Source of the DNA: Bacteroidota bacterium
GTDB taxonomy: Bacteria > Bacteroidota > Bacteroidia > Bacteroidales > VadinHA17
Direction of reading: 5' to 3'
Assembly: GCA_006227095.1 (NCBI GenBank)
Contig: SBFZ01000226.1
Location: forward strand, 1-11,500
Length of the DNA stretch: 11,500 nucleotides
In this document: one piece after another, positions 6 to 10,633 of the stretch
How the letters are laid out: each line of letters begins with the position of its first letter
How positions within the stretch are numbered: position 1 is the first letter of the stretch
Made by a program: the position numbers and the translations under genes
The notes under the pieces: model-generated
Told to the model about the DNA's origin: nothing
Database searches by the model: none
The model's input: only the letters and a program-made list of their open reading frames with translations

Positions 6-34
6 TTGTTTTTTTAAAATAATGGTTATTTTTG
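6..34 (+). promoter_or_regulatory. Putative Bacteroidota-type promoter of the ilv-leu operon
   Basis: TATTTTTG at 27-34 matches the Bacteroidetes -7 consensus TAnnTTTG exactly. A TTG at 6-8, 18 bases upstream, could be a reduced -33 element (consensus TTTG). Transcription would then start near 39-43, leaving only 10 to 14 bases before the leader peptide ATG at 53. The position, just ahead of a leader peptide and attenuator, supports the call. The -33 box is weak and sits at the window edge, so the assignment is inference from a short motif. Confidence 0.5.
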
Positions 35-52
35 CCAGCCACAGATAAGAAC

Positions 53-112
53 ATGAACCATACTTCACTCCTTATTATTGCCCTGTTTATTCTCATCGCT
101 ATTAGCGGATGA
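53..112 (+). CDS. Branched-chain amino acid operon leader peptide (attenuation)
   Basis: ATG at 53 opens a 19-codon frame ending in TGA at 110-112, with product MNHTSLLIIALFILIAISG. Residues 6, 7, 11 and 14 are Leu and residues 8, 9, 13, 15 and 17 are Ile, so nine of nineteen are branched-chain residues; Val is absent. Most of these codons are CTC, CTT and ATT. The peptide probably has no function of its own: its translation would sense charged leucyl- and isoleucyl-tRNA. The stop codon abuts the sequence that can form the antiterminator (113-120), so a ribosome reaching the stop would mask it. No strong Shine-Dalgarno is visible, only purine-rich AGATAAGAA just before the ATG. The frame was chosen on codon content and its geometry relative to the terminator. 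A hydrophobic micropeptide with another role is less likely. Confidence 0.8.
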   Translation: MNHTSLLIIALFILIAISG

Positions 113-160
113 CCGGGGAGTAATATATAGTGAGTATAAACAGATATAGAAGCTTCCCGG
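113..160 (+). promoter_or_regulatory. Antiterminator helix of the ilv-leu attenuator
   Basis: CCGGGGAG at 113-120 can pair over all eight bases with CTTCCCGG at 153-160, with one G-U pair. That second segment is also the 5' arm of the terminator, so the two structures exclude each other. Position 113 follows directly after the leader stop codon. A ribosome stalled on the Leu/Ile codons at 68-97 would leave 113-120 free to pair and let transcription into ilvD. A ribosome at the stop would cover it and allow termination. The pairing is seen in the sequence; the mechanism follows the classical attenuation model and is inference here. Confidence 0.75.
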
Positions 161-180
161 AAAACCGGGGAGCTTTTTTT
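150..180 (+). terminator. Intrinsic terminator (attenuator) ahead of ilvD
   Basis: An 11-base-pair stem pairs 150-160 (AAGCTTCCCGG) with 165-175 (CCGGGGAGCTT) across an AAAA loop, with a single G-U pair. It is followed by a run of seven T at 174-180. This is a strong Rho-independent terminator. It ends only 17 bases before the ilvD ATG and lies downstream of a Leu/Ile-rich leader frame. It therefore serves as a regulated attenuator of the operon and is unlikely to be the end of an upstream gene. Confidence 0.88.
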
Positions 181-198
181 ATGCAAATACGCCAGTGA
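181..198 (+). other. Possible five-codon minicistron overlapping the ilvD start
   Basis: ATG at 181, directly after the terminator T run, begins MQIRQ and stops at TGA 196-198, sharing one base with the ilvD ATG (TGATG). GGGGAG at 167-172, in the 3' arm of the terminator, sits eight bases before this ATG like a Shine-Dalgarno. This could deliver ribosomes to ilvD only when the terminator hairpin is not formed. The overlap is seen; function is speculative, since this phylum seldom uses Shine-Dalgarno pairing. Confidence 0.25.
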
Positions 199-2024
199 TG
201 ATAAGGGAACCCAGAAGCAAGCGTACAATGACCGGCAGGACTATGGCCGGAGCCAGGAGCCTCTGGCGGGCAAACGGCATGAAGGAAGAGCAGTTCGGCA
301 AACCGGTAATAGCCGTGGTTAACTCATTCTCGCAGTTCGTTCCGGGGCATGTGCATCTGCAGCAGGCAGGGCGCGTGATCAGGGAAGAGCTTGAACGACG
401 GGGACTGTTTGCAGCAGAATTCAATACCATAGCCATCGATGACGGAATAGCAATGGGGCACGGGGGAATGCTCTATTCACTCCCCTCACGTGACCTTATT
501 GCTGACAGCGTGGAGTATGTATGCAATGCACACTGTGCCGATGCGATGATATGCATCAGCAACTGCGACAAGATTACCCCCGGCATGCTGATGGCTGCCA
601 TGCGCCTCAATATTCCGGCACTGTTCGTTTCAGGCGGACCGATGGAAGCAGGTCTGTCAGCCGGCAGGGCAGTGGATCTGATTGACACGATGGTGGCGGC
701 AGCGGATGAATCAGTCTCCGGTGAAAGGCTCCTGGAACTCGAAAGATCTTCATGCCCCTCTTGCGGATCCTGTTCAGGAATGTTTACAGCCAACTCCATG
801 AACTGCCTTGCGGAGGCACTGGGACTGGCACTGCCCGGAAACGGGACAGTACTCGCAACTCATTCTGACAGGATGAAGATGTTCCGCAGGGGGGCTCAGC
901 TGATAGCTGATATGGCAGAAAAATATTACGGTGAGGGTGATGATTCCGTACTGCCACGCTCGATCGCCACCAGGGAGGCATTCATGAATGCAATGACCGT
1001 AGACATTGCCATGGGAGGGTCAACAAACACGGTACTCCATCTCCTGGCCATCGCCCATGAAGCAGGAGTTGACTTCACCATGAAGGATATTGACGCCCTT
1101 TCACGCCGTATTCCCAACGTTTGTAAGGTCTCCCCTGCCTCTTCATACCACGTTGAGGATGTCAACCGCGCGGGAGGGGTCTTTGCAATAATGGGAGAAC
1201 TCAGCAGGGCACAGTTGCTTGATACATCTGTTAACAGGGTTGACTATAAATCCCTCGGGGCAGCACTGTCTGACTGGGATATTATGAGTCCGGCGGTTCT
1301 GCCGGAGGCACTTGACCTCTTTCTCAGCGCCCCCGGGAGGTCAGCAAGGCCTGAGCCCTTTGCATCTGAAGCCAGGTATGTCTCACATGACACTGACAGG
1401 TCCGGGGGGGCAATAAGAGATACAGGCCACGCATACAGCAACGACGGGGGTCTGGCAGTACTGTACGGAAACCTGGCCACCGGAGGATGCATTGTGAAGA
1501 CGGCAGCAATTGACAGCACAATGATGAGATTCAGCGGGCCGGCTGTCGTATTCGAATCGCAGGAAGATGCAGTTGAGGGTATCCTGGGCGGCATGGTCAA
1601 AGAGGGTGATGTGGTGGTGATAAGATACGAGGGGCCCCGCGGCGGCCCGGGGATGCAGGAGATGCTGTATCCTACCTCATACCTCAAATCCAGGGGGCTT
1701 GACCGACGGTGCGCCCTTGTCACTGACGGCCGCTTCTCCGGGGGTTCGGCTGGCCTGTCGGCGGGGCATATATCCCCCGAGGCCGCCGCGGGCGGAACAA
1801 TAGCCCTGGTGCATAACGGCGACAGGATAATGATTGACATACCTGCACGCACCATAAGCCTGGCAGTCGATGACACAGTCCTGGAGTTAAGACGCATGTC
1901 GCAGGAAGCCAGGGGCACAGCAGCCTTTACCCCTGACAAAAGAACCAGGGCAGTATCAGGTTCACTGAAGGTTTATGCAGCTCATGTCAGCTCCGCAGAC
2001 AGGGGCGCTATAAGGGAAATTTAA
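198..2024 (+). CDS. ilvD: Dihydroxy-acid dehydratase
   Basis: This enzyme removes water from 2,3-dihydroxy-isovalerate and 2,3-dihydroxy-3-methylvalerate, giving the 2-oxo acid precursors of valine (and leucine) and isoleucine in the cytoplasm. The protein has 608 residues, close to E. coli IlvD. The N-terminal signature [17 protein letters not shown] is complete. Iron-sulfur cysteines appear in NCDKITPGM (Cys about 123) and [13 protein letters not shown] (Cys about 192). [25 protein letters not shown] active-site sequence lies near the C-terminus. The first motif reads FVPGHVHL, without the extra cysteine (PCNxHL) of the [2Fe-2S] plant and mycobacterial enzymes, so an oxygen-labile [4Fe-4S] cluster like that of E. 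coli is inferred. ATG 198 was preferred; a GTG at 195 in the same frame adds one residue. It is the first structural gene after the attenuator and ends 15 bases before ilvB. Confidence 0.97.
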
Positions 2025-2039
2025 AAAGATATCAGGCGA

Positions 2040-3806
2040 ATGAAAAAGAACAACAACAATACGGTACCCGGCGACGCCGGACCTGTTGCCACGTCAGGAG
2101 TCCGCACTGAGGTCACCGGTGCCGAAGCACTTCTGAAAGCACTTGTTGAAGAGGGTGTTGATACAATCTTTGGTTACCCCGGCGGTGCCATAATGCCCGT
2201 CTATGACAAGCTGCTCGACTACAGCGACAGCCTCAGGCATATACTTACGAGGCATGAGCAGGGGGCAGCACATGCCGCCCAGGCCTATGCCATGGTCACC
2301 GGCAGGCCAGGGGTATGCTTTGCCACCTCCGGTCCGGGAGCCACCAACCTGGTGACAGGAATTGCCAATGCTTTCCTTGACTCGGTACCGGTGGTCTTCA
2401 TCACCGCACAGGTGACGTCATCACTGATAGGCACTGATGCATTCCAGGAGACTGATATCCTGGGTATCTCCATGCCTGTCACCAAATGGAACGCACAGGT
2501 GAAGAATGCCGCAGAGATACCTGAAGTCATTGCCCGTGCATTTTATATTGCCCGTACCGGGAGGCCCGGTCCGGTACTGGTTGACATAGCAAAGGATGCA
2601 CAGTTTGAAAGCATGACCTTCCGTTACAGCAAATGCACCTACATCCGTAGCTATAATCCGGCTAATCCACTCATCGGCAGGGATATTGAATCAGCAGCAG
2701 TCATGATCAACCATGCAGAGAGGCCACTGATACTTGCCGGCCACGGCGTGATCATCTCGGGTGCCGTGGCGGAACTGAAGGCGCTTGCAGAAAAAGGGGG
2801 AATACCCGTTGCTGTAACCCTGCCCGGGATACCGGCTTTCAGCCATGACCACAGGCTCTTCGCAGGGATGCTGGGCATGCACGGCAACTATGCACCCAAC
2901 GTGCTCACCAACAGGGCCGACCTGATCATAGCTGCGGGAATGCGGTTCGATGACCGTGTCACCGGCAACCTCAAGAAATATGCTCCGCAGGCAAGGGTGA
3001 TACATATTGACATAGACAGGGCAGAGATTGACAAGAATGTCAGGGCTGACATCGGAATCAACGGTGATGCGAGGGAGGTCCTGACTGCAATGCTGCCACA
3101 TATCAGGGAAAAAAAGAGGGAGGAATGGATACGGGAATTCCGCATCCTTGACCGGACGGAGAACGAAAAGGTCATTAAGCCGGAAACCGAGCCCGGGAAA
3201 GGAGAACTTAAGATGGGCGAAGTGGTAAAAGTAATCTCGGAGCTCGCCGGAAGAAATACGGTGGTGGTAACCGACGTTGGTCAGCACCAGATGGCTGTGG
3301 CTCGCTATTACCGCTTTACTGACAGCAATACCCTCGTTACCTCCGGAGGTATGGGAACAATGGGATTCGGCCTGCCGGCCGCCATGGGTGCTGCCACCGG
3401 TACCACTGACCGTCCGGTAATAGCCTTCATAGGCGACGGAGGCTTCCAGATGACCGTTCAGGAACTGGGAACAATAATGCAGTACCGCATCCCTGTGAAA
3501 ATAGTTCTTCTGAACAACAGCTTCCTGGGCATGGTGCGCCAGTGGCAGGAAATGTTCTTCAACAGCCGCTATGCCTCCACAGAGATGGTCAACCCCGACT
3601 TTGTAACACTGGCTTCTGCCTATGGCATACCGGCACGAAAGATAAACAGGCGTGAAGAGCTGAAAGAGGCAACCTCTGAGATGCTCGCATCAGAAGGCCC
3701 GTTCATCCTGGTTGCAGAGGTCAGCCGTATAGCAAATATCCTCCCGATGGTTGAACCGGGAGCATCAGTATCCGAAGTTACACTTACATACAGCAGCAAA
3801 TCATGA
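2040..3806 (+). CDS. ilvB: Acetolactate synthase, catalytic (large) subunit
   Basis: This ThDP enzyme condenses two pyruvates to 2-acetolactate (Val/Leu), or pyruvate with 2-oxobutanoate to 2-aceto-2-hydroxybutanoate (Ile). The 588-residue protein shows the usual three-domain order. The N-terminal pyrimidine-binding domain has FGYPGGAIMPVYD (44-56) and the catalytic glutamate Glu73 in RHEQGAAHAAQAYA. A central FAD-binding-type domain follows. The C-terminal pyrophosphate domain carries GDGGF (465-469) and NNSFLGM (492-498), where Asp466 and Asn493 would bind Mg. Presence of the middle domain motifs and a partner IlvN makes this the biosynthetic enzyme and not a catabolic acetolactate synthase. 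A short Asn-rich extension (residues 4-7) precedes the conserved part. Its stop overlaps the ilvN start in ATGA, which suggests translational coupling and balanced subunit levels. Confidence 0.97.
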   Translation: MKKNNNNTVPGDAGPVATSGVRTEVTGAEALLKALVEEGVDTIFGYPGGAIMPVYDKLLDYSDSLRHILTRHEQGAAHAAQAYAMVTGRPGVCFATSGPGATNLVTGIANAFLDSVPVVFITAQVTSSLIGTDAFQETDILGISMPVTKWNAQVKNAAEIPEVIARAFYIARTGRPGPVLVDIAKDAQFESMTFRYSKCTYIRSYNPANPLIGRDIESAAVMINHAERPLILAGHGVIISGAVAELKALAEKGGIPVAVTLPGIPAFSHDHRLFAGMLGMHGNYAPNVLTNRADLIIAAGMRFDDRVTGNLKKYAPQARVIHIDIDRAEIDKNVRADIGINGDAREVLTAMLPHIREKKREEWIREFRILDRTENEKVIKPETEPGKGELKMGEVVKVISELAGRNTVVVTDVGQHQMAVARYYRFTDSNTLVTSGGMGTMGFGLPAAMGAATGTTDRPVIAFIGDGGFQMTVQELGTIMQYRIPVKIVLLNNSFLGMVRQWQEMFFNSRYASTEMVNPDFVTLASAYGIPARKINRREELKEATSEMLASEGPFILVAEVSRIANILPMVEPGASVSEVTLTYSSKS

Positions 3807-4363
3807 AACAGGAATTTACAATAACTCTGTTCAGCGAAAACCATATCGGTATCCTCAGCCGGATAACCCTGATCCTGACACGCAGGCAGATAAATATTGA
3901 AAGTATAACTGCATCTGAATCAGCCGTATCGGGCGTGCACATGCTTACGATGGTAGTGCGCACCACCCCTGAGATGGTACAGAAAATCTCACGGCAGATA
4001 GAAAAGGTGGTTGATGTGCTCAAGGTCTTTGTTCACACATCATCTGAAATAATATGCCAGGAAATGGCTCTCTACAAGGTCACCACCAGGGGCCTGATGT
4101 CAGGAAGCATGATCGGTGACATTGTAAGGAAATACCACGCAACCATACTTGAAGTGACACCCGAGTACATGGTTGTGGAAAAGAGCGGTACCAGGGCAGA
4201 GATTAAGGAACTGCTCTCGTTGCTTGAACCATGCGGGGTGCTGCAGTTTGTCAGCTCGGGCCGGGTGGCAGTCACACGGCAGGTGAAGGAGCTGAATGCC
4301 TATCTCCGTGAGATGGATGAGGCTCACAGAACAAGGAAGGAAGCACTTGAATTTTACAATTGA
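3803..4363 (+). CDS. ilvN: Acetolactate synthase, regulatory (small) subunit
   Basis: This subunit activates IlvB and gives it feedback control. The 186-residue protein starts with an ACT domain (about residues 3-75: ITLFSENHIGILSRITLIL and INIESITASE), followed by a small-subunit C-terminal domain with VTTRGL and VRKYHATILEVTPEYMVVE. Gly16 and Asn31 line up with Gly14 and Asn29 of E. coli IlvH, which are needed for valine inhibition, so valine sensitivity is inferred. The length exceeds the minimal E. coli IlvN (about 96) and resembles IlvH-type long subunits, with a charged C-terminal tail (about 165-186). The ATG overlaps the ilvB stop by four bases. The next gene, ilvC, starts 29 bases after the stop, with no terminator or other gene between. 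Confidence 0.95.
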   Translation: MKQEFTITLFSENHIGILSRITLILTRRQINIESITASESAVSGVHMLTMVVRTTPEMVQKISRQIEKVVDVLKVFVHTSSEIICQEMALYKVTTRGLMSGSMIGDIVRKYHATILEVTPEYMVVEKSGTRAEIKELLSLLEPCGVLQFVSSGRVAVTRQVKELNAYLREMDEAHRTRKEALEFYN

Positions 4364-4392: not shown

Positions 4393-5442
4393 ATGGCACA
4401 GATTGATTTTGGAGGAGTAGTTGAGAATGTGGTAACCAGGCAGGAATTTCCGCTGTCAAAAGCCCGCGAGGTACTTAAGGATGAGGTTGTTGCAGTTATT
4501 GGTTACGGTGTCCAGGGGCCGGCACAGGCCATGAACATGCGTGACAATGGCATCAACGTGATTGTCGGGCAGGCACCGGAATTCAGGGCAGACTGGGACC
4601 GGGCAGTGGCAGACGGGTTTGTTCCCGGTGTTTCACTCTTCACCGTTGAGGAGGCGGCTGCCCGCGGCACCGTAATACAGTACCTGGTATCAGACGCTGC
4701 CCAGAGGTTGCTCTGGCCGGTGATCAGGCCATTCCTCACCACCGGTAAGGCCCTTTACTTTTCTCATGGCTTCTCGGTGACATACAAACAGCATACCGGC
4801 GTGATACCCCCGCCTGACATTGATGTGATCCTTTGTGCCCCGAAGGGCTCAGGCACCAGCGTCAGGCGCAACTTCCTCGCAGGAGCGGGAATCAATTCAA
4901 GCTTCTCGGTATTTCAGGATCACACAGGCAGGGCCGAAGAGAGGGTGATAGCCCTCGGGATAGCCATCGGTTCAGGATACCTGTTCCCCACCACATTTGA
5001 AAAGGAGGTCTACAGTGATCTTACCGGTGAACGGGGTGTGCTGATGGGAGCCCTCGAAGGGATAATGGAAGCACAGTACGAGGTGCTGCGCGAAAACGGA
5101 CACTCACCTTCCGAGGCATTCAATGAGACGGTTGAGGAGCTGACACAGAGCCTGATCAGGCTTGTTGACGAGAAAGGTATGGACTGGATGTATGCCAACT
5201 GCAGCGCCACGGCACAACGGGGCGCACTCGACTGGAAACCACGGTTCAGGGAGGCTACCCTCCCCGTATTCAGGGATCTGTATGCAAAAGTAAGTTCCGG
5301 CGAAGAGTGCGTCAGGGTGCTCACCTCAACCGGCGCTCCCGGCTACAGGGAACAGCTCAATGCAGAACTGGCAGAGATGGGATCATCCGAGCTCTGGAGA
5401 GCAGGTGCGGCCGTAAGAAAACTGAGACCTGAAAACAAATAA
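4393..5442 (+). CDS. ilvC: Ketol-acid reductoisomerase, class I
   Basis: This enzyme isomerises and reduces 2-acetolactate and 2-aceto-2-hydroxybutanoate to the dihydroxy acids used by IlvD. At 349 residues it fits the short class I form. Seen in order are the Rossmann motif [10 protein letters not shown] (37-46), the cofactor loop at 59-68, SHGF (124-127), [10 protein letters not shown] (149-158), the Mg ligands Asp209 and Glu213 in SDLTGERG, Glu245 and Glu249 in [11 protein letters not shown], and Ser271 in [13 protein letters not shown]. The C-terminal RKLRPENK and the N-terminal MAQIDFGG are those of Bacteroidetes enzymes as I remember them. The loop between Gly59 and Trp68 reads QAPEFRAD. 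It is longer than the common forms, lacks the usual early Arg/Lys and ends in Asp where NADPH enzymes usually have Ser, so use of NADH is possible. leuA follows 16 bases downstream. Confidence 0.96.
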
Positions 5443-5458
5443 CCCCGGAACGGAAATC

Positions 5459-6976
5459 ATGGACAAAGACAGGGTAATAATTTTTGATACCACCCTCCGT
5501 GACGGAGAACAGGTACCGGGCTGTCAGCTCAATACCGTTGAAAAGATCGAAGTGGCAAAGGCACTCGAGGCACTGGGTGTAGATGTAATTGAGGCCGGGT
5601 TTCCGGTCTCCAGCCCGGGCGACTTTCTCTCGGTGGTTGAGATATCGAAGGCTGTAAGGGAACCGGTCATCTGTGCCCTCACCAGGGCCGTGAAGAAAGA
5701 CATTGAAGTGGCTGCCGAAGCCCTGCAGTACGCTGAAAGAAAGCGGATACACACAGGCATCGGAACATCGCCGTGGCATATCCAGTACAAGATCCGGACA
5801 ACCCCGGAGGAGATTATCAAAAGGGCGGTTGATGCAGTCAAATATGCCAGGAAATTCACCGATGACGTGGAATTCTATGCGGAAGATGCAGGCCGCAGTG
5901 AAAATGAGTATCTCGCCAGGGTGACGGAGGCGGTGATCAATGCAGGTGCCACCGTGGTTAACATACCGGATACAACAGGTTACTGCCTGCCTGAAGAATA
6001 TGGCAGGAAGATCAGGTACCTCATGGAGAACGTCCCCAACATTGACCGCGCAATCATTTCAACACATTGCCACAATGATCTCGGCATGGCTACGGCAAAC
6101 ACCATGATGGGACTGATCAACGGTGCACGCCAGGCGGAGGTGACAATCAACGGCATAGGTGAGAGGGCAGGCAACACCTCGCTCGAGGAGGTGGCCATGA
6201 TTATTAAAAGCCACCATGATCTTAATCTCACAACCGGCATCAAACCAAAGCTTATCTTCAGCACCAGCAGGCTGGTCTCCACACTTATGAGCATGCCTGT
6301 CCAGCCCAACAAGGCCATCGTCGGCCGCAATGCCTTTGCACATTCCTCAGGCATACATCAGGACGGAGTGCTGAAGAAGCGTGAAAACTATGAGATAATT
6401 GACCCGAAGGAGGTAGGTGTAAGGGAGTCGTCAATTATCCTTACCGCCAGGAGCGGCAGGGCAGCACTTAATCACAGGCTCGAGTCACTTGGCATTGAGC
6501 TGGGCAAGGAGGAACTCGACGAGATCTATCACCGCTTCCTTATGCTGGCTGACAAAAAGAAAGAGATCAATGATGAAGATATCAGGATACTGTCAGGTGA
6601 GGTCTTCCGGGGAGAAAAGCGTCTCAAGCTGGAGTCGCTGCAGGTTCTGTGCGGCAACTCGGTGACACCTGTAGCCACTGTCCGCATCCGGGTCAACGGC
6701 GAGGTGCATACCTCCACGGCTCCCGGCAACGGGCCCATCGATGCTGCCTTCACCGCCGTGAAGCACCTGATTCATGAGAACGTTCACCTGGAGGAGTTCC
6801 TCATACAGGCCATTACCAGGGGGAGTGATGACATGGGAAAGGTTCACATCCAGGTTGAGCATGCGGGAAACATCTATTACGGCTTCTCGGCAAATACTGA
6901 TATAGTTACTGCATCAGTCGAGGCATTCATCGATGCAATTTCAAAGATAGACAATGAGCGGAAAGACACTCTTTGA
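5459..6976 (+). CDS. leuA: 2-isopropylmalate synthase
   Basis: This enzyme performs the first step of leucine synthesis, joining acetyl-CoA and 2-oxoisovalerate. The 505-residue protein has an N-terminal TIM barrel with [13 protein letters not shown] (Arg14, Asp15), [23 protein letters not shown], the metal-binding HCHND (His203, His205) and [15 protein letters not shown] linker follows ([17 protein letters not shown]), then the leucine-binding regulatory domain from about residue 391 to 500 ([26 protein letters not shown]). It is a full-length feedback-regulated type. It belongs to a different subgroup from the cimA product further down, which lacks [11 protein letters not shown] and NAFAHSSG and has its own motifs. 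The reading frame runs 23 bases into leuC, and the last dozen residues extend beyond the usual end of the family. Confidence 0.95.
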
Positions 6977-8372
6977 CAGGATATGGGATGCCCACGTGGT
7001 AAGGTCAGTCACCGGGGGACCGGATGTTCTGTATATTGACCGTCACTACATCCATGAGGTGACAAGCCCTCAGGCTTTCAGTGGCCTGAGGGAGAGAGGC
7101 ATCAGCGTACTCAGGCCCGGGAGGACCATCGCCACCGCAGACCATAACATCCCCACCTTAAACCAGCATCTCCCCATTGCCGATCCTGTCTCGCGGAACC
7201 AGGTGGAGACCCTTGAGGAAAACTGCCGTACCGGTGGAATAAAATACTTCGGGATGGGTGATCCGGGGAATGGCATCGTTCATGTCACCGGACCGGAGCA
7301 GGGGTATACCCTTCCGGGAATGACAATCGTCTGTGGCGACAGCCATACATCAACCCACGGAGCCTTCGGCACAATAGCCTTTGGCATCGGCACCAGCGAA
7401 GTGGAGATGGTGCTGGCTACACAATGCCTCCTCCAGTCAAGGCCGAAGCAGATGAGGATCACTGTAAAGGGTAAACTGCGGGAAGGAGTCACCTCAAAGG
7501 ATCTGATACTTTACATCATCGCCTCACTTGGTACCGGAGGAGCCACGGGATATTTCGTGGAATATGCAGGTGAGGCTGTCAGGAGACTGAGCATGGAGTC
7601 ACGGATGACTGTTTGCAATATGAGCATCGAGATGGGAGCCCGCGGCGGACTCATTGCCCCTGATGAGGTTACCTTCAACTGGCTGGCACAGATACCTTCC
7701 GTATCTGAAAACCGTGAATTCGCCCGCCTGGTTCATGAGTGGCACTCTCTCAGGAGTGACCGCGGAGCACACTTCGACAGGGAGGTCACTTTTGATGCCT
7801 CTGAGGTACCACCTATGATAACCTACGGCACGAGTCCCGGCATGGGAATGGCTGTTGACGGTACCATCCCAACGCCTGAAGAGTCAGCCTCCTCAGCGCA
7901 ATCTGCCAGCGGTTCATATCTCAAATCTCTTGACTATATGGGATTCAAACCCGGAATGAGACTTCTGGGTCACCCGATCGACTATGTCTTTCTCGGGAGC
8001 TGTACCAACGGCCGCATAGAAGACCTGAGGCTCTTTACAGAAGCTGTTGCAGGAAAGAAAAAAGCTGCCGGAGTCACCGCCCTGATTGTGCCGGGGTCAC
8101 AGCAGGTTGCAAGGCAGGCTGAACGTGAAGGACTGACTGAGACACTCAGGCTGGCCGGATTTGAGATGAGACAACCGGGTTGCTCATCATGCCTGGCAAT
8201 GAATGAAGACAAGATCCCTGCAGGCAAATATGCGGTCTCAACTTCAAACCGAAACTTCGAGGGAAGACAGGGACCGGGGGCGAGAACGTTGCTGGCCGGC
8301 CCGCTTGTAGCAGCAGCAGCGGCAATAACCGGGAGAATAACAGACCCGAGGGAACTGAACTGGCTGCAGTGA
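6954..8372 (+). CDS. leuC: 3-isopropylmalate dehydratase, large subunit
   Basis: With LeuD this aconitase-family protein converts 2-isopropylmalate to 3-isopropylmalate. It probably also converts citramalate to 3-methylmalate, given the neighbouring cimA. The 472-residue length is typical of bacterial LeuC. The start is fixed by the conserved [13 protein letters not shown], which begins at residue 4. [12 protein letters not shown] lies at 128-139. The [4Fe-4S] ligands are Cys350 in [11 protein letters not shown] and Cys410 and Cys413 in GCSSCLAMN, and [17 protein letters not shown] is the bacterial form of that segment. The ATG lies 23 bases upstream of the end of leuA in another frame, which suggests coupled translation. 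A 105-base gap follows before leuD, the largest in the operon. Confidence 0.96.
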
Positions 8373-8477
8373 ATAAGGAAAACCGAAACTCTGAAACCGG
8401 AATGATCAGGAAAAAACCAGAGCATTTGATTATCGGACTTCATAAAAATTTTAAACTCCGGAAAAATCCATTAACTG
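8373..8477 (+). other. leuC-leuD intergenic stretch
   Basis: This is the only sizeable gap in the operon and is richer in A and T than the genes. No terminator hairpin with a T run was found. A TTTG at 8425-8428 and an AT-rich patch at 8443-8455 loosely recall an internal promoter, but the -7 motif is not matched. One frame stays open across the whole gap, from a GTG at 8369 that overlaps the leuC stop to a TGA at 8504-8506 inside leuD (45 codons, Lys-rich). I see no family resemblance in it and do not call it a gene. Confidence 0.4.
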
Positions 8478-9074
8478 ATGAAAAGAGAGGAATTCACCAT
8501 ACTTGAATCAACAGCAGTTCCGCTGCCACTGGCCAATATTGACACTGACCAGATAATTCCTGCACGCTTTCTGAGTGCAACAGTCAGGGAAGGATTCGGT
8601 GAAAAGCTGTTCCGCGACTGGAGATTTGACGGTGAGGGGAAGCCGATACCCGGATTCGTTCTCAACAGGCCTGAATTCAGGGGAGAAATACTCATCACCG
8701 GCAGCAACTTTGGCTGCGGCTCCAGCAGGGAACATGCCGTCTGGGCTATTACCGGCCACGGCTTCAGAGCTGTGGTATCAGACTCATTTGCCGATATTTT
8801 CATGAACAACGCACTGAACAACGGCCTGCTGACGGTGACAGTCACCCCGGAGTTCCTGGCACAGCTGACAGAGCTTGTCGCTGCCAGGCCCGGCACCATG
8901 TTAAGGATAGACCTGCCGGAGCAGGTTATCTCTGTTCCCGGGGCAGGACTGAGCTCAGGATTCCCGGTGAATCCTTTCAGAAAGGAGTGTCTTATCAGGG
9001 GACTCGATAATATTGATTATCTCCTCTCGATGAAAGATGAAATACTGGCATTTGAAAAAAGCAGGCAATCGTGA
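8478..9074 (+). CDS. leuD: 3-isopropylmalate dehydratase, small subunit
   Basis: This is the swivel-domain partner of LeuC. The 198-residue protein has NIDTDQIIPARFL (20-32), FRDWRFD, the substrate-binding loop GSNFGCGSSREHA (75-87) and a VVSDSFADIFMNNALNNGLL segment, all typical of bacterial LeuD of about 200 residues. The ATG at 8478 is well placed for the conserved N-terminus. No Shine-Dalgarno is evident in the AT-rich upstream stretch. The stop codon overlaps the GTG start of cimA by four bases (GTGA). The LeuCD complex is expected to serve both the leucine and the citramalate branch. Confidence 0.96.
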   Translation: MKREEFTILESTAVPLPLANIDTDQIIPARFLSATVREGFGEKLFRDWRFDGEGKPIPGFVLNRPEFRGEILITGSNFGCGSSREHAVWAITGHGFRAVVSDSFADIFMNNALNNGLLTVTVTPEFLAQLTELVAARPGTMLRIDLPEQVISVPGAGLSSGFPVNPFRKECLIRGLDNIDYLLSMKDEILAFEKSRQS

Positions 9075-10633
9075 AAGTTGAAATACTCGATACCACCCTC
9101 AGGGATGGCGAACAGACACAGGGTGTCTCCTACTCGCCTGTCGAGAAGCTGCATATAGCCACCATGCTCCTGCGTGACCTGAAGGCAGACCGCATCGAGG
9201 TGGCCTCCGCAAGGGTCTCTCCGGGAGAACAGGAGGCGGTACGCCTCATAACCTCCTGGGCGGAACAGAACGGAATGTCTGACAGGGTCGAAGTCCTGGG
9301 TTTCGTTGACGGCGCCGGGTCACTGGAATGGATCAGGGAGGCAGGAGGCAGGGTGATCAACCTGCTTTGCAAGGGTTCACTCCGTCACCTGGAAAAACAG
9401 CTGAGAAAGACGCCCGAAGAACATATCCGTGACATACTTGATATCGTGGCAATGGCTGAAACCAATGGCATGATGGTCAACATCTATCTTGAGGACTGGT
9501 CAAACGGCATGCTTTCATCACCGGGGTACGTCGACCAGATGGTCGATGCCCTTGCCGGAAGCGGAATAAAGAGGGTCATGCTCCCTGACACCCTCGGAAT
9601 CCTGAATCCTGACCAGACATGGCATTTCTGTGCGCAGATGACTGCCAGGCATCCGGAGGTCCATTTTGATTTTCATCCGCATAACGACTACGACCTTTCT
9701 GTAGCCAATATCTTTTCAGCGGTGAAGGCAGGTGTTAAAGGGGTACATACCACGGTGAACGGTCTCGGAGAGAGAGCCGGCAATGCGCCGCTATCAAGCG
9801 TTATAGCCCTGATGAGGGATCACCTCGATGCTGAAACGGGTGTAAACGAGTATGAAATTACACGCGTCAGCCGGATGGTGGAGAAATTAAGCGGAATACG
9901 GATACCGGTAAACAAGCCGGTTATCGGGGCTAATGTATTCACCCAGACCTCAGGCGTTCATGCCGACGGTGACCGGAAGGACAATCTCTACTGCAGCAAC
10001 CTTAGCCCCGAAAGATTCGGGAGAAAGAGGGAGTACGCACTCGGCAAGCAATCTGGCAAGGCTACCATACGCAAGAACCTTGAGGAGTTCGGGCTGGAGC
10101 TGAGCCCGGAGCTGCTCGTCAGGGTGACGGAGAGAGTGATTGAGCTGGGCGACAAGAAGGAGAGCGTCACACGTGAAGACCTGCCGTTCATCATTGCCGA
10201 CGTCCTGGGCGATGACCGCTCAGGTTACAGGGTCTTCATCCGGAACTACTCGCTTAATCTCACCTGTGGCCTTAAGCCCTCTGCAAGCGTACAGGTGGAA
10301 ATCGACGGTATCCTTCACCAGGATACAGCCGCAGGCGACGGACAGTATGATGCGTTCATGAAGGCCCTGAGAAAGATATATGAATCGCTCGGCAGCGGGC
10401 TGCCCCTGCTGACCGATTACGAGGTGTCTATACCCCCGGGCGGAAAAACCGATGCCCTTGTGGAAACAGTAATAAAATGGAACCACAATGGAAGGGAGTT
10501 CAGGACAAGGGGGCTTGATGCCGACCAGACCGAGTCAGCCATCAAGGCCACGGAAAAAATGCTGAATATTATCTGCAGCACGGAAGCTAACCAGGAATAC
10601 AACAAACTAATTGAAATAGCAAATGAATTATAA
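9071..10633 (+). CDS. cimA: (R)-citramalate synthase (2-isopropylmalate synthase family)
   Basis: This enzyme probably condenses acetyl-CoA with pyruvate to give (R)-citramalate, the first step of the threonine-independent isoleucine route. The 520-residue protein has [78 protein letters not shown] (His202, His204), NGLGERAGN and TQTSGVHADGD. A C-terminal regulatory domain spans about 385-505 (GDGQYDAFM, PPGGKTDALVET). It aligns without gaps in the barrel with the Leptospira interrogans citramalate synthase as I recall it. Its Arg11, Asp12, Leu76, Leu99, Tyr139 and Glu141 correspond to the Leptospira Arg16, Asp17, Leu81, Leu104, Tyr144 and Glu146, the pyruvate pocket and catalytic residues. 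A GTG start overlaps the leuD stop. Relatives in databases are often named LeuA, so a second isopropylmalate synthase is the main alternative. Confidence 0.85.
   Translation: MKVEILDTTLRDGEQTQGVSYSPVEKLHIATMLLRDLKADRIEVASARVSPGEQEAVRLITSWAEQNGMSDRVEVLGFVDGAGSLEWIREAGGRVINLLCKGSLRHLEKQLRKTPEEHIRDILDIVAMAETNGMMVNIYLEDWSNGMLSSPGYVDQMVDALAGSGIKRVMLPDTLGILNPDQTWHFCAQMTARHPEVHFDFHPHNDYDLSVANIFSAVKAGVKGVHTTVNGLGERAGNAPLSSVIALMRDHLDAETGVNEYEITRVSRMVEKLSGIRIPVNKPVIGANVFTQTSGVHADGDRKDNLYCSNLSPERFGRKREYALGKQSGKATIRKNLEEFGLELSPELLVRVTERVIELGDKKESVTREDLPFIIADVLGDDRSGYRVFIRNYSLNLTCGLKPSASVQVEIDGILHQDTAAGDGQYDAFMKALRKIYESLGSGLPLLTDYEVSIPPGGKTDALVETVIKWNHNGREFRTRGLDADQTESAIKATEKMLNIICSTEANQEYNKLIEIANEL

Follow-up and report, generated by a model that had tools for sequence, protein, structure and literature searches.

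The window analysed here is a stretch of 11,500 nucleotides, which constitutes a complete contig of an assembly of 434 contigs (72% complete). It bears nine collinear genes on the forward strand in the order ilvD-ilvB-ilvN-ilvC-leuA-leuC-leuD-cimA-like-leuB, and the positions of all features are collected in Table 1. A sequence-only reading had previously proposed a nine-gene ilv-leu-cimA operon, and all nine genes were found in place, with the name cimA resting on a score below the NCBIfam cut-off. Specifically, NF042433 is the best match of this leuA paralogue, yet its 676 bits lie under the curated cut-off of 950 bits; at this family score, the gene suggests a threonine-independent synthesis of isoleucine. 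The start of ilvD was set at the ATG at 198, which its relatives keep in the alignment, and the GTG at 195 proposed by the ORF caller was dropped for the same reason. The spacer between leuC and leuD (8373-8477) is the sole gap of more than 100 nt inside the operon, and neither a leader nor a terminator was evident when looked for there. Among the matches listed for ilvD, the six best named records belong to Bacteroidota, mostly Bacteroidales, and ilvD genes of Desulfobulbaceae, Spirochaetes and Proteobacteria are found at almost equal identity, again among the matches listed. Bacteroidota is the phylum to which this ranking, the type of promoter and the leader point.

Table 1. Features annotated in the window; positions are counted from its first base, and regions 1 to 4 are the segments of the putative attenuator.
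Feature	Position	Strand	Basis
Putative promoter, TTG (7-9) and TATTTTTG (27-34, fits TAnnTTTG)	7..34	+	sequence; element conserved in genus alignment
Leader peptide ORF, MNHTSLLIIALFILIAISG and stop, 19 codons	53..112	+	sequence; conserved in genus and order
Predicted protector hairpin 1:2, full extent	60-91/108-137	+	fold of 53-147
Region 1 core (codons 7-11), pairs with region 2	73..85	+	fold of 53-147
Region 2, CCGGGGAGT, immediately 3′ of the leader stop	113..121	+	
Region 3, GCTTCCCGG, in the terminator 5′ arm; partner of region 2	152..160	+	fold of 104-162
Predicted intrinsic terminator 3:4, core 150-160/165-175, AAAA loop, T run to 180	150..180	+	conserved in genus
ilvD, first gene of the operon	198..2024	+	NF009103, 1003 bits, cut-off 710
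ilvB	2040..3806	+	
ilvN	3803..4363	+	
ilvC	4393..5442	+	TIGR00465, 299.9 bits, cut-off 226.15
leuA	5459..6976	+	
leuC	6954..8372	+	
leuD	8478..9074	+	
leuA paralogue, probably citramalate synthase (cimA, Leptospira type)	9071..10633	+	NF042433, 676 bits
leuB, broken off by the contig end	10623..11498	+	TIGR00169, 427 bits, cut-off 353.2

The region ahead of ilvD is compact. The promoter candidate fits TAnnTTTG, which we take to be the Bacteroidota -7 element. The window shows a single attenuator unit, although the contig begins just 26 bases 5′ of this element. The leader ORF encodes four Leu and five Ile, that is, nine of its 19 codons, together with only one Phe; no GGAGG-like site lies 5′ of it, and its stop codon (110-112) is followed by the ATG of ilvD 85 nt downstream. 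Regions 2 and 3 can form nine pairs, two of which are G-U, and the resulting antiterminator gains an extra helix between 124-128 and 144-148. The terminator core consists of 11 bp with one G-U, and the seven T at T174-T180 include two that fall inside the stem, while the ATG of ilvD stands 17 bases past T180. Within 27-198, every element that the sequence-only reading had named was thus recovered at its coordinates: the promoter-like motif, the 19-codon frame with its nine Leu/Ile codons, the antiterminator, the 11-bp terminator with seven T and the first gene 17 bases on.

This terminator was absent from the output of a generic promoter/terminator scan, its T run being partly absorbed into the stem, and the scan was set aside because its counts were at the level of shuffled sequence (7 vs 8.1 and 9 vs 9.6). 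Rfam returned zero matches at the gathering score in the whole window (amino-acid leader families, T-box and other riboswitches) and in 20 related loci, and a known Rfam family was accordingly ruled out as the identity of the element. Below that threshold, Phe_leader (RF01859) matched positions 52-182 through the overall layout of leader and terminator, with 33.5 bits against a gathering score of 55 (E-value = 0.00063 for 400 bases), to a leader with a single Phe codon.

Positions 40-185 fold at -47.6 kcal/mol (z = -6.4), and none of 200 dinucleotide shuffles folded as well. A composite score for leader, antiterminator and terminator at the window locus (L001) was reached by 0/100 dinucleotide shuffles. 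A chance coincidence of ORF and terminator was dropped on the basis of these window shuffles and of a shuffle rate of 1.2% in the order-wide set described below. Folded piece by piece, the 1:2 protector hairpin is predicted at -25.5 kcal/mol (RNA 53-147), the 2:3 antiterminator at -19.0 kcal/mol (RNA 104-162, with region 1 out of play) and the 3:4 terminator at -21.0 kcal/mol (RNA 125-180, with region 2 covered); in the latter, 148-160 pairs with 165-177 and is the sole structure left. Antiterminator and terminator are mutually exclusive, as both use region 3 (152-160).

Stalling was modelled by a scan in which the downstream edge of the ribosome was assumed to lie 14 nt past the first base of the A-site codon. 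With RNA up to 165, all nine 2:3 pairs were retained for A-site codons 1-16, seven for codon 17 (Ile) and four for codon 18, and none for codon 19 or the stop; a ribosome at the stop codon leaves the terminator alone. The Leu and Ile codons (6-9, 11, 13-15 and 17) are therefore sited where a stall would free most or all of region 2. With RNA up to 180, the 3:4 terminator was the minimum-energy state at every stall position. Since the terminator wins energetically once region 4 exists, the switch would rely on co-transcriptional timing, with 2:3 formed before region 4 is made. Folding order matters for the protector as well, because in RNA up to 162 without a ribosome the 2:3 fold (-25.7 kcal/mol) is about tied with the 1:2 hairpin. 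The whole leader up to 180 without a ribosome folds as 1:2 plus 3:4 (-46.5 kcal/mol), which corresponds to the terminated state.

Loss of the frame or of the stems in close relatives, which would refute the proposal according to the sequence-only reading, was looked for in the same genus, where 18 of 22 genomes gave an ilvD match, and the result did not refute it. A first script located a leader (seven or more I/L/V in 14 codons) and a terminator in 17/18 of these upstream regions, and the 18th (L015) presents by eye both a terminator and the leader MKTSLFYFIILPLIIGNS. An unbroken run of six or more 2:3 pairs is found in 16/18 loci; L014 and L015 fail the wider rule that was applied later, and a single mismatch is seen by eye in the 2:3 pairing of both. 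Alignment of 15 distinct leader peptides from 17 loci, which left out both leaders of the tandem locus L112, revealed that Ile9, Leu11 and Ile15 are invariant and that length changes comprise whole codons. In the DNA alignment of 16 loci, the invariant columns include those of the -7 element and of both arms of the terminator, as well as some of the leader. Concerning composition, Ile accounts for 28%, Leu for 19% and Val for 2% of the residues of the 17 leaders, with Ala at 12% and Phe at 7%. To judge from these shares, the genus seems to sense Ile and Leu and hardly Val.

The survey was extended to 97 ilvD loci from 95 genomes of the order, the window included, with part of the genomes drawn evenly at ≥90% completeness. 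Several loci that have a short T run or a TTG start escaped the first detection scripts; thresholds were altered after these misses had been seen, and the shuffles were rerun under the final rule. This wider rule asks for seven or more I/L/V in 14 codons of the leader, a terminator within 115 nt and five or more 2:3 pairs. It detects the unit in 77/97 loci (1.2% of shuffles pass), compared with at least one unit in 69/97 under a stricter rule. By eye, eleven of the 20 failing loci still show a leader and the other nine (L154, L165, L210, L211, L212, L213, L220, L221 and L223) show none, and one passing locus (L225) looks false by eye. A further 80 named records were divided by their titles into Bacteroidota and non-Bacteroidota. 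Under the wider rule, the unit is present in 30/40 of the former (0.9% of shuffles) and in 0/40 of the latter (1.9% of shuffles pass), a control that is imperfect because ilvD need not open an operon outside Bacteroidota and that includes three loci with less than 200 nt of upstream sequence. Among named relatives, Bacteroides graminisolvens DSM 19988 (L080) has the same unit. A phylum-wide ilvD search outside the order yielded distant forms, matched in pieces at ~31-59% identity among the matches listed, and was not used.

Evidence for the stems across loci was obtained by permuting region 2, taken as the stretch around the leader stop, against terminator arms. Paired with its own arm, region 2 reached a summed score of 1316 vs 927 ± 31 for permuted arms (n = 71; 0/5000 permutations), and outside the genus 973 vs 720 ± 26 (n = 54; 0/5000), own pairing being somewhat favoured in these figures since the loci were chosen partly for a region 2 near the leader stop. 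Own pairing scored above the mean of the other loci in 58/71 cases and not above it in 13/71, and shifting the region 2 window lowered the mean score from 18.5 to 8.0-10.8 (n = 71). By eye, the upstream regions inspected vary widely in the linker that joins regions 2 and 3. This variation bears on the idea that the terminated leader RNA or the leader peptide acts in trans besides attenuation, a role with a precedent in the trp leader peptide peTrpL of Sinorhizobium, as far as it is described in PMC7298713. Nothing in the sequence demands such an action and the variable linker argues against it, leaving it a very slim chance. As for the promoter, TAnnTTTG occurs at most 70 nt 5′ of the leader ATG in 61/70 order loci (4.1 expected from shuffles), and in 35 of those 61 it lies 16-20 nt from the ATG.

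Leaders outside the genus (52) consist of Leu, Val and Ile at 19%, 18% and 18% of residues, respectively. Their codon usage is skewed, with CTA making up 19% of Leu codons (3% in ilvD) and GTC 43% of Val codons (17% in ilvD); this may reflect a preference for rare codons that make control sensitive, or a choice of codons that suits pairing. A short and hydrophobic peptide, in which Ala (12%) and Phe (7%) are also common within the genus, could be read as a functional small membrane peptide or toxin, with the terminator ending its own small transcript. In the 52 leaders outside the genus, however, Ile, Leu and Val add up to 84% of the I/L/V/F/A/M/W/G/C residues, which would exceed the share in a general membrane helix; inside the genus the corresponding share of 69% is less telling. 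Moreover, region 2 adjoins the stop codon and tracks the terminator, and the His- and Trp-rich leaders found in parallel (see below) are unlike membrane peptides. We therefore give the membrane peptide or toxin next to no probability.

The residues of the leader were further compared with the pathway by looking for hisG and trpE in 40 relatives. The gene hisG was found in 25/40, and the search of the window's own genome, which is 72% complete, did not find it. By eye, 22 of the 24 hisG loci read (L228-L251) display a His-rich leader with four to seven His (e.g., MNTYTIHHHHHHHTCSQAR) and a terminator; one of the other two is without a His leader, and the second reads as a run of N at that place. 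Many hisG leaders of the same genus end in SQAR, the codons of which resemble region 2 by eye. In six same-genus genomes (G001, G005, G009, G010, G018 and G020), hisG has the same orientation as ilvD and starts ~11-13 kb 3′ of its start; there, the ilv-leu operon seems to be succeeded by a his operon that has a leader of its own. All trpE hits lie below the curated cut-off of the family and are hence termed trpE-like. Trp-rich leaders (three to five Trp) are present in 7/12 of these loci and one more has two Trp, while the remaining four comprise two that are seemingly intra-operon, one that is truncated and one without a leader. The loci upstream of trpE-like genes in which a run of Trp was seen by eye ahead of a terminator are L253, L254, L256-L260 and L262. 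Leader composition thus appears to track the pathway in related genomes (I/L/V for ilv, H for his, W for trp), and this match is the strongest argument for a leader that senses its amino acid.

The same match weighs against keeping the anatomy and replacing the signal, that is, a protein or small molecule rather than charged tRNA and a stalled ribosome shifting 2:3 against 3:4, or a leader that mainly aids re-initiation at ilvD. Such readings are not without precedent. In Streptomyces coelicolor, changing the candidate control codons before ilvB had no effect, so that anatomy alone failed to predict behavior in the case described in PMC1262725, and leader stops near genes can raise translation via re-initiation, according to the account in PMC4833913. 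On the other side, no Rfam family was matched in the window or in the 20 related loci, and the 85 nt between leader stop and ilvD are long for close re-initiation. Taken together, another signal or a re-initiation role appears quite improbable.

We conclude that positions 27-198 very probably represent a ribosome-mediated transcription attenuator of the trp/ilv/leu type. This is also how the sequence-only reading had interpreted them, and the reading gains support from the order-wide units with matching stems and from the His- and Trp-rich leaders of relatives. The promoter motif and the collinear genes would be in keeping with a common transcript for leader, terminator and operon. Transcription would start ~10-13 nt 5′ of the leader ATG, and a ribosome would translate the leader behind RNA polymerase. 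When charged tRNA-Ile and tRNA-Leu are ample, the ribosome would reach the stop codon and cover region 2; region 3 would then pair with region 4 and transcription would end near 175-180. If either of the two runs low, the ribosome would pause on the Leu or Ile codons in the body of the leader and leave region 2 free; this would then pair with region 3 while region 4 is still to be made, and the polymerase would enter the nine-gene ilv-leu operon. If the leader is not translated, the 1:2 hairpin would form first, probably resulting in termination.

Two units in series 5′ of ilvD were also encountered. The two-unit script detected them in L051 (Marinifilum), in L112, which is genome G007 of the window's own genus, and in L163, whose first unit is weak; by eye they were recognized in L040 and L041 (Marinifilaceae, Labilibaculum), L120, L160 and L226. 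Within 600 bases upstream of ilvD, the arrangement was thus seen in 5/97 order loci and in 3/80 named loci. In 8/8 tandem loci, no TAnnTTTG occurs in the 19-24 nt that separate the second leader from the terminator of the first unit, as expected if both units share one transcript, and one or two such sites occur in the 200 bases searched 5′ of the first terminator, likewise in 8/8. Lying on one transcript, the two terminators would work as serial gates. The paired leaders can differ in how much Leu they contain: the first leader of L226 contains eight Ile and one Val with zero Leu, and the second leader in Marinifilaceae (counted for L040 and L051) has one Leu vs 14-15 Ile and Val.

The trp, ilv and leu attenuators of E. 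coli and other Proteobacteria combine a leader peptide rich in the residues of the pathway, the alternative hairpins 1:2, 2:3 and 3:4, and a terminator before the first gene. The element of the window resembles them in its leader, its three hairpins and its intrinsic terminator (for context, PMC3766115 and PMC2965389). It differs in phylum, in its TAnnTTTG promoter, in the lack of a GGAGG-like site before the leader, in the absence of an Rfam match at the gathering score and in that one attenuator serves a combined ilv-leu-cimA operon. Actinobacterial ilvB genes are likewise preceded by short ORFs with Ile/Val/Leu runs and by terminators, but there, as described in PMC1262725, terminator hairpins and ORFs overlap and how regulation works is called unclear, whereas the leader presented here ends at region 2, before the terminator. 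The ilvD motif WRC-18-2 of Veillonella and the ilvB motif of Leptospira are also structured RNAs before ilvD or ilvB, some with a terminator; they belong to other phyla and are weak riboswitch candidates, and their description in PMC8632094 includes no branched-chain leader peptide.

Within Bacteroidota, the closest parallel comes from Flavobacterium psychrophilum, for which strong clues for leader-peptide attenuation before amino-acid operons have been presented; in Flavobacteriaceae, hisG and pheA are also preceded by structured 5′ elements (PMC9723704). These candidates share the phylum and the proposed mechanism with our element, but come from another group of the phylum, and the section of that paper on attenuation names no ilv leader, co-variation or tandem arrangement. 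In Bacteroides thetaiotaomicron, long 5′ UTRs with short ORFs reminiscent of leader peptides have been described, ilv being unmentioned in the main text (PMC7366714). In 2010, demonstrated leader-peptide systems were said to be confined to Proteobacteria and Actinobacteria, to which Firmicutes were added in the same paper (PMC2965389), and amino-acid attenuators were thought perhaps to have arisen in gamma-proteobacteria (PMC3766115). The earlier suggestion that the element may be undescribed stands in part: no description of an ilv/leu attenuator in Bacteroidales was found in the literature searched, but a 2010 survey by Lopatovskaya and colleagues may hold predictions for the phylum, and attenuation had already been called likely in F. 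psychrophilum (PMC9723704). As coverage of the literature is incomplete, the lack of an earlier description is weak evidence of novelty. On its sequence, the element is of the classical attenuator type, with an already-known mechanism, in an under-documented phylum.

The interest of the element lies in the order-wide system to which it belongs, in its bearing on transcription-translation coupling and in the tandem forms, which are a more unusual by-product. It is possible, with a likelihood somewhat short of even, that ribosome-mediated attenuation is a general and old control of ilv-leu, his and trp operons in this Bacteroidota order, that the first ribosome keeps pace with the polymerase, and that two ilvD units in series on one transcript form a two-gate switch in several lineages. 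If this is true, transcription and translation would be coupled in this order, and the first ribosome, starting without a Shine-Dalgarno sequence on a 5′ end of ~10-13 nt, would have to match the pace of RNA polymerase. Attenuation works only with ribosomes close behind RNA polymerase, which makes coupling in these bacteria directly testable. The tandem versions would then be natural two-input switches, in which a shortage at both leaders would be needed to open both gates. Leader-peptide attenuation is little documented in Bacteroidota within the literature searched, and the element would provide a concrete point at which the synthesis of branched-chain amino acids is controlled in this major phylum, whose members live in the gut and in the environment.
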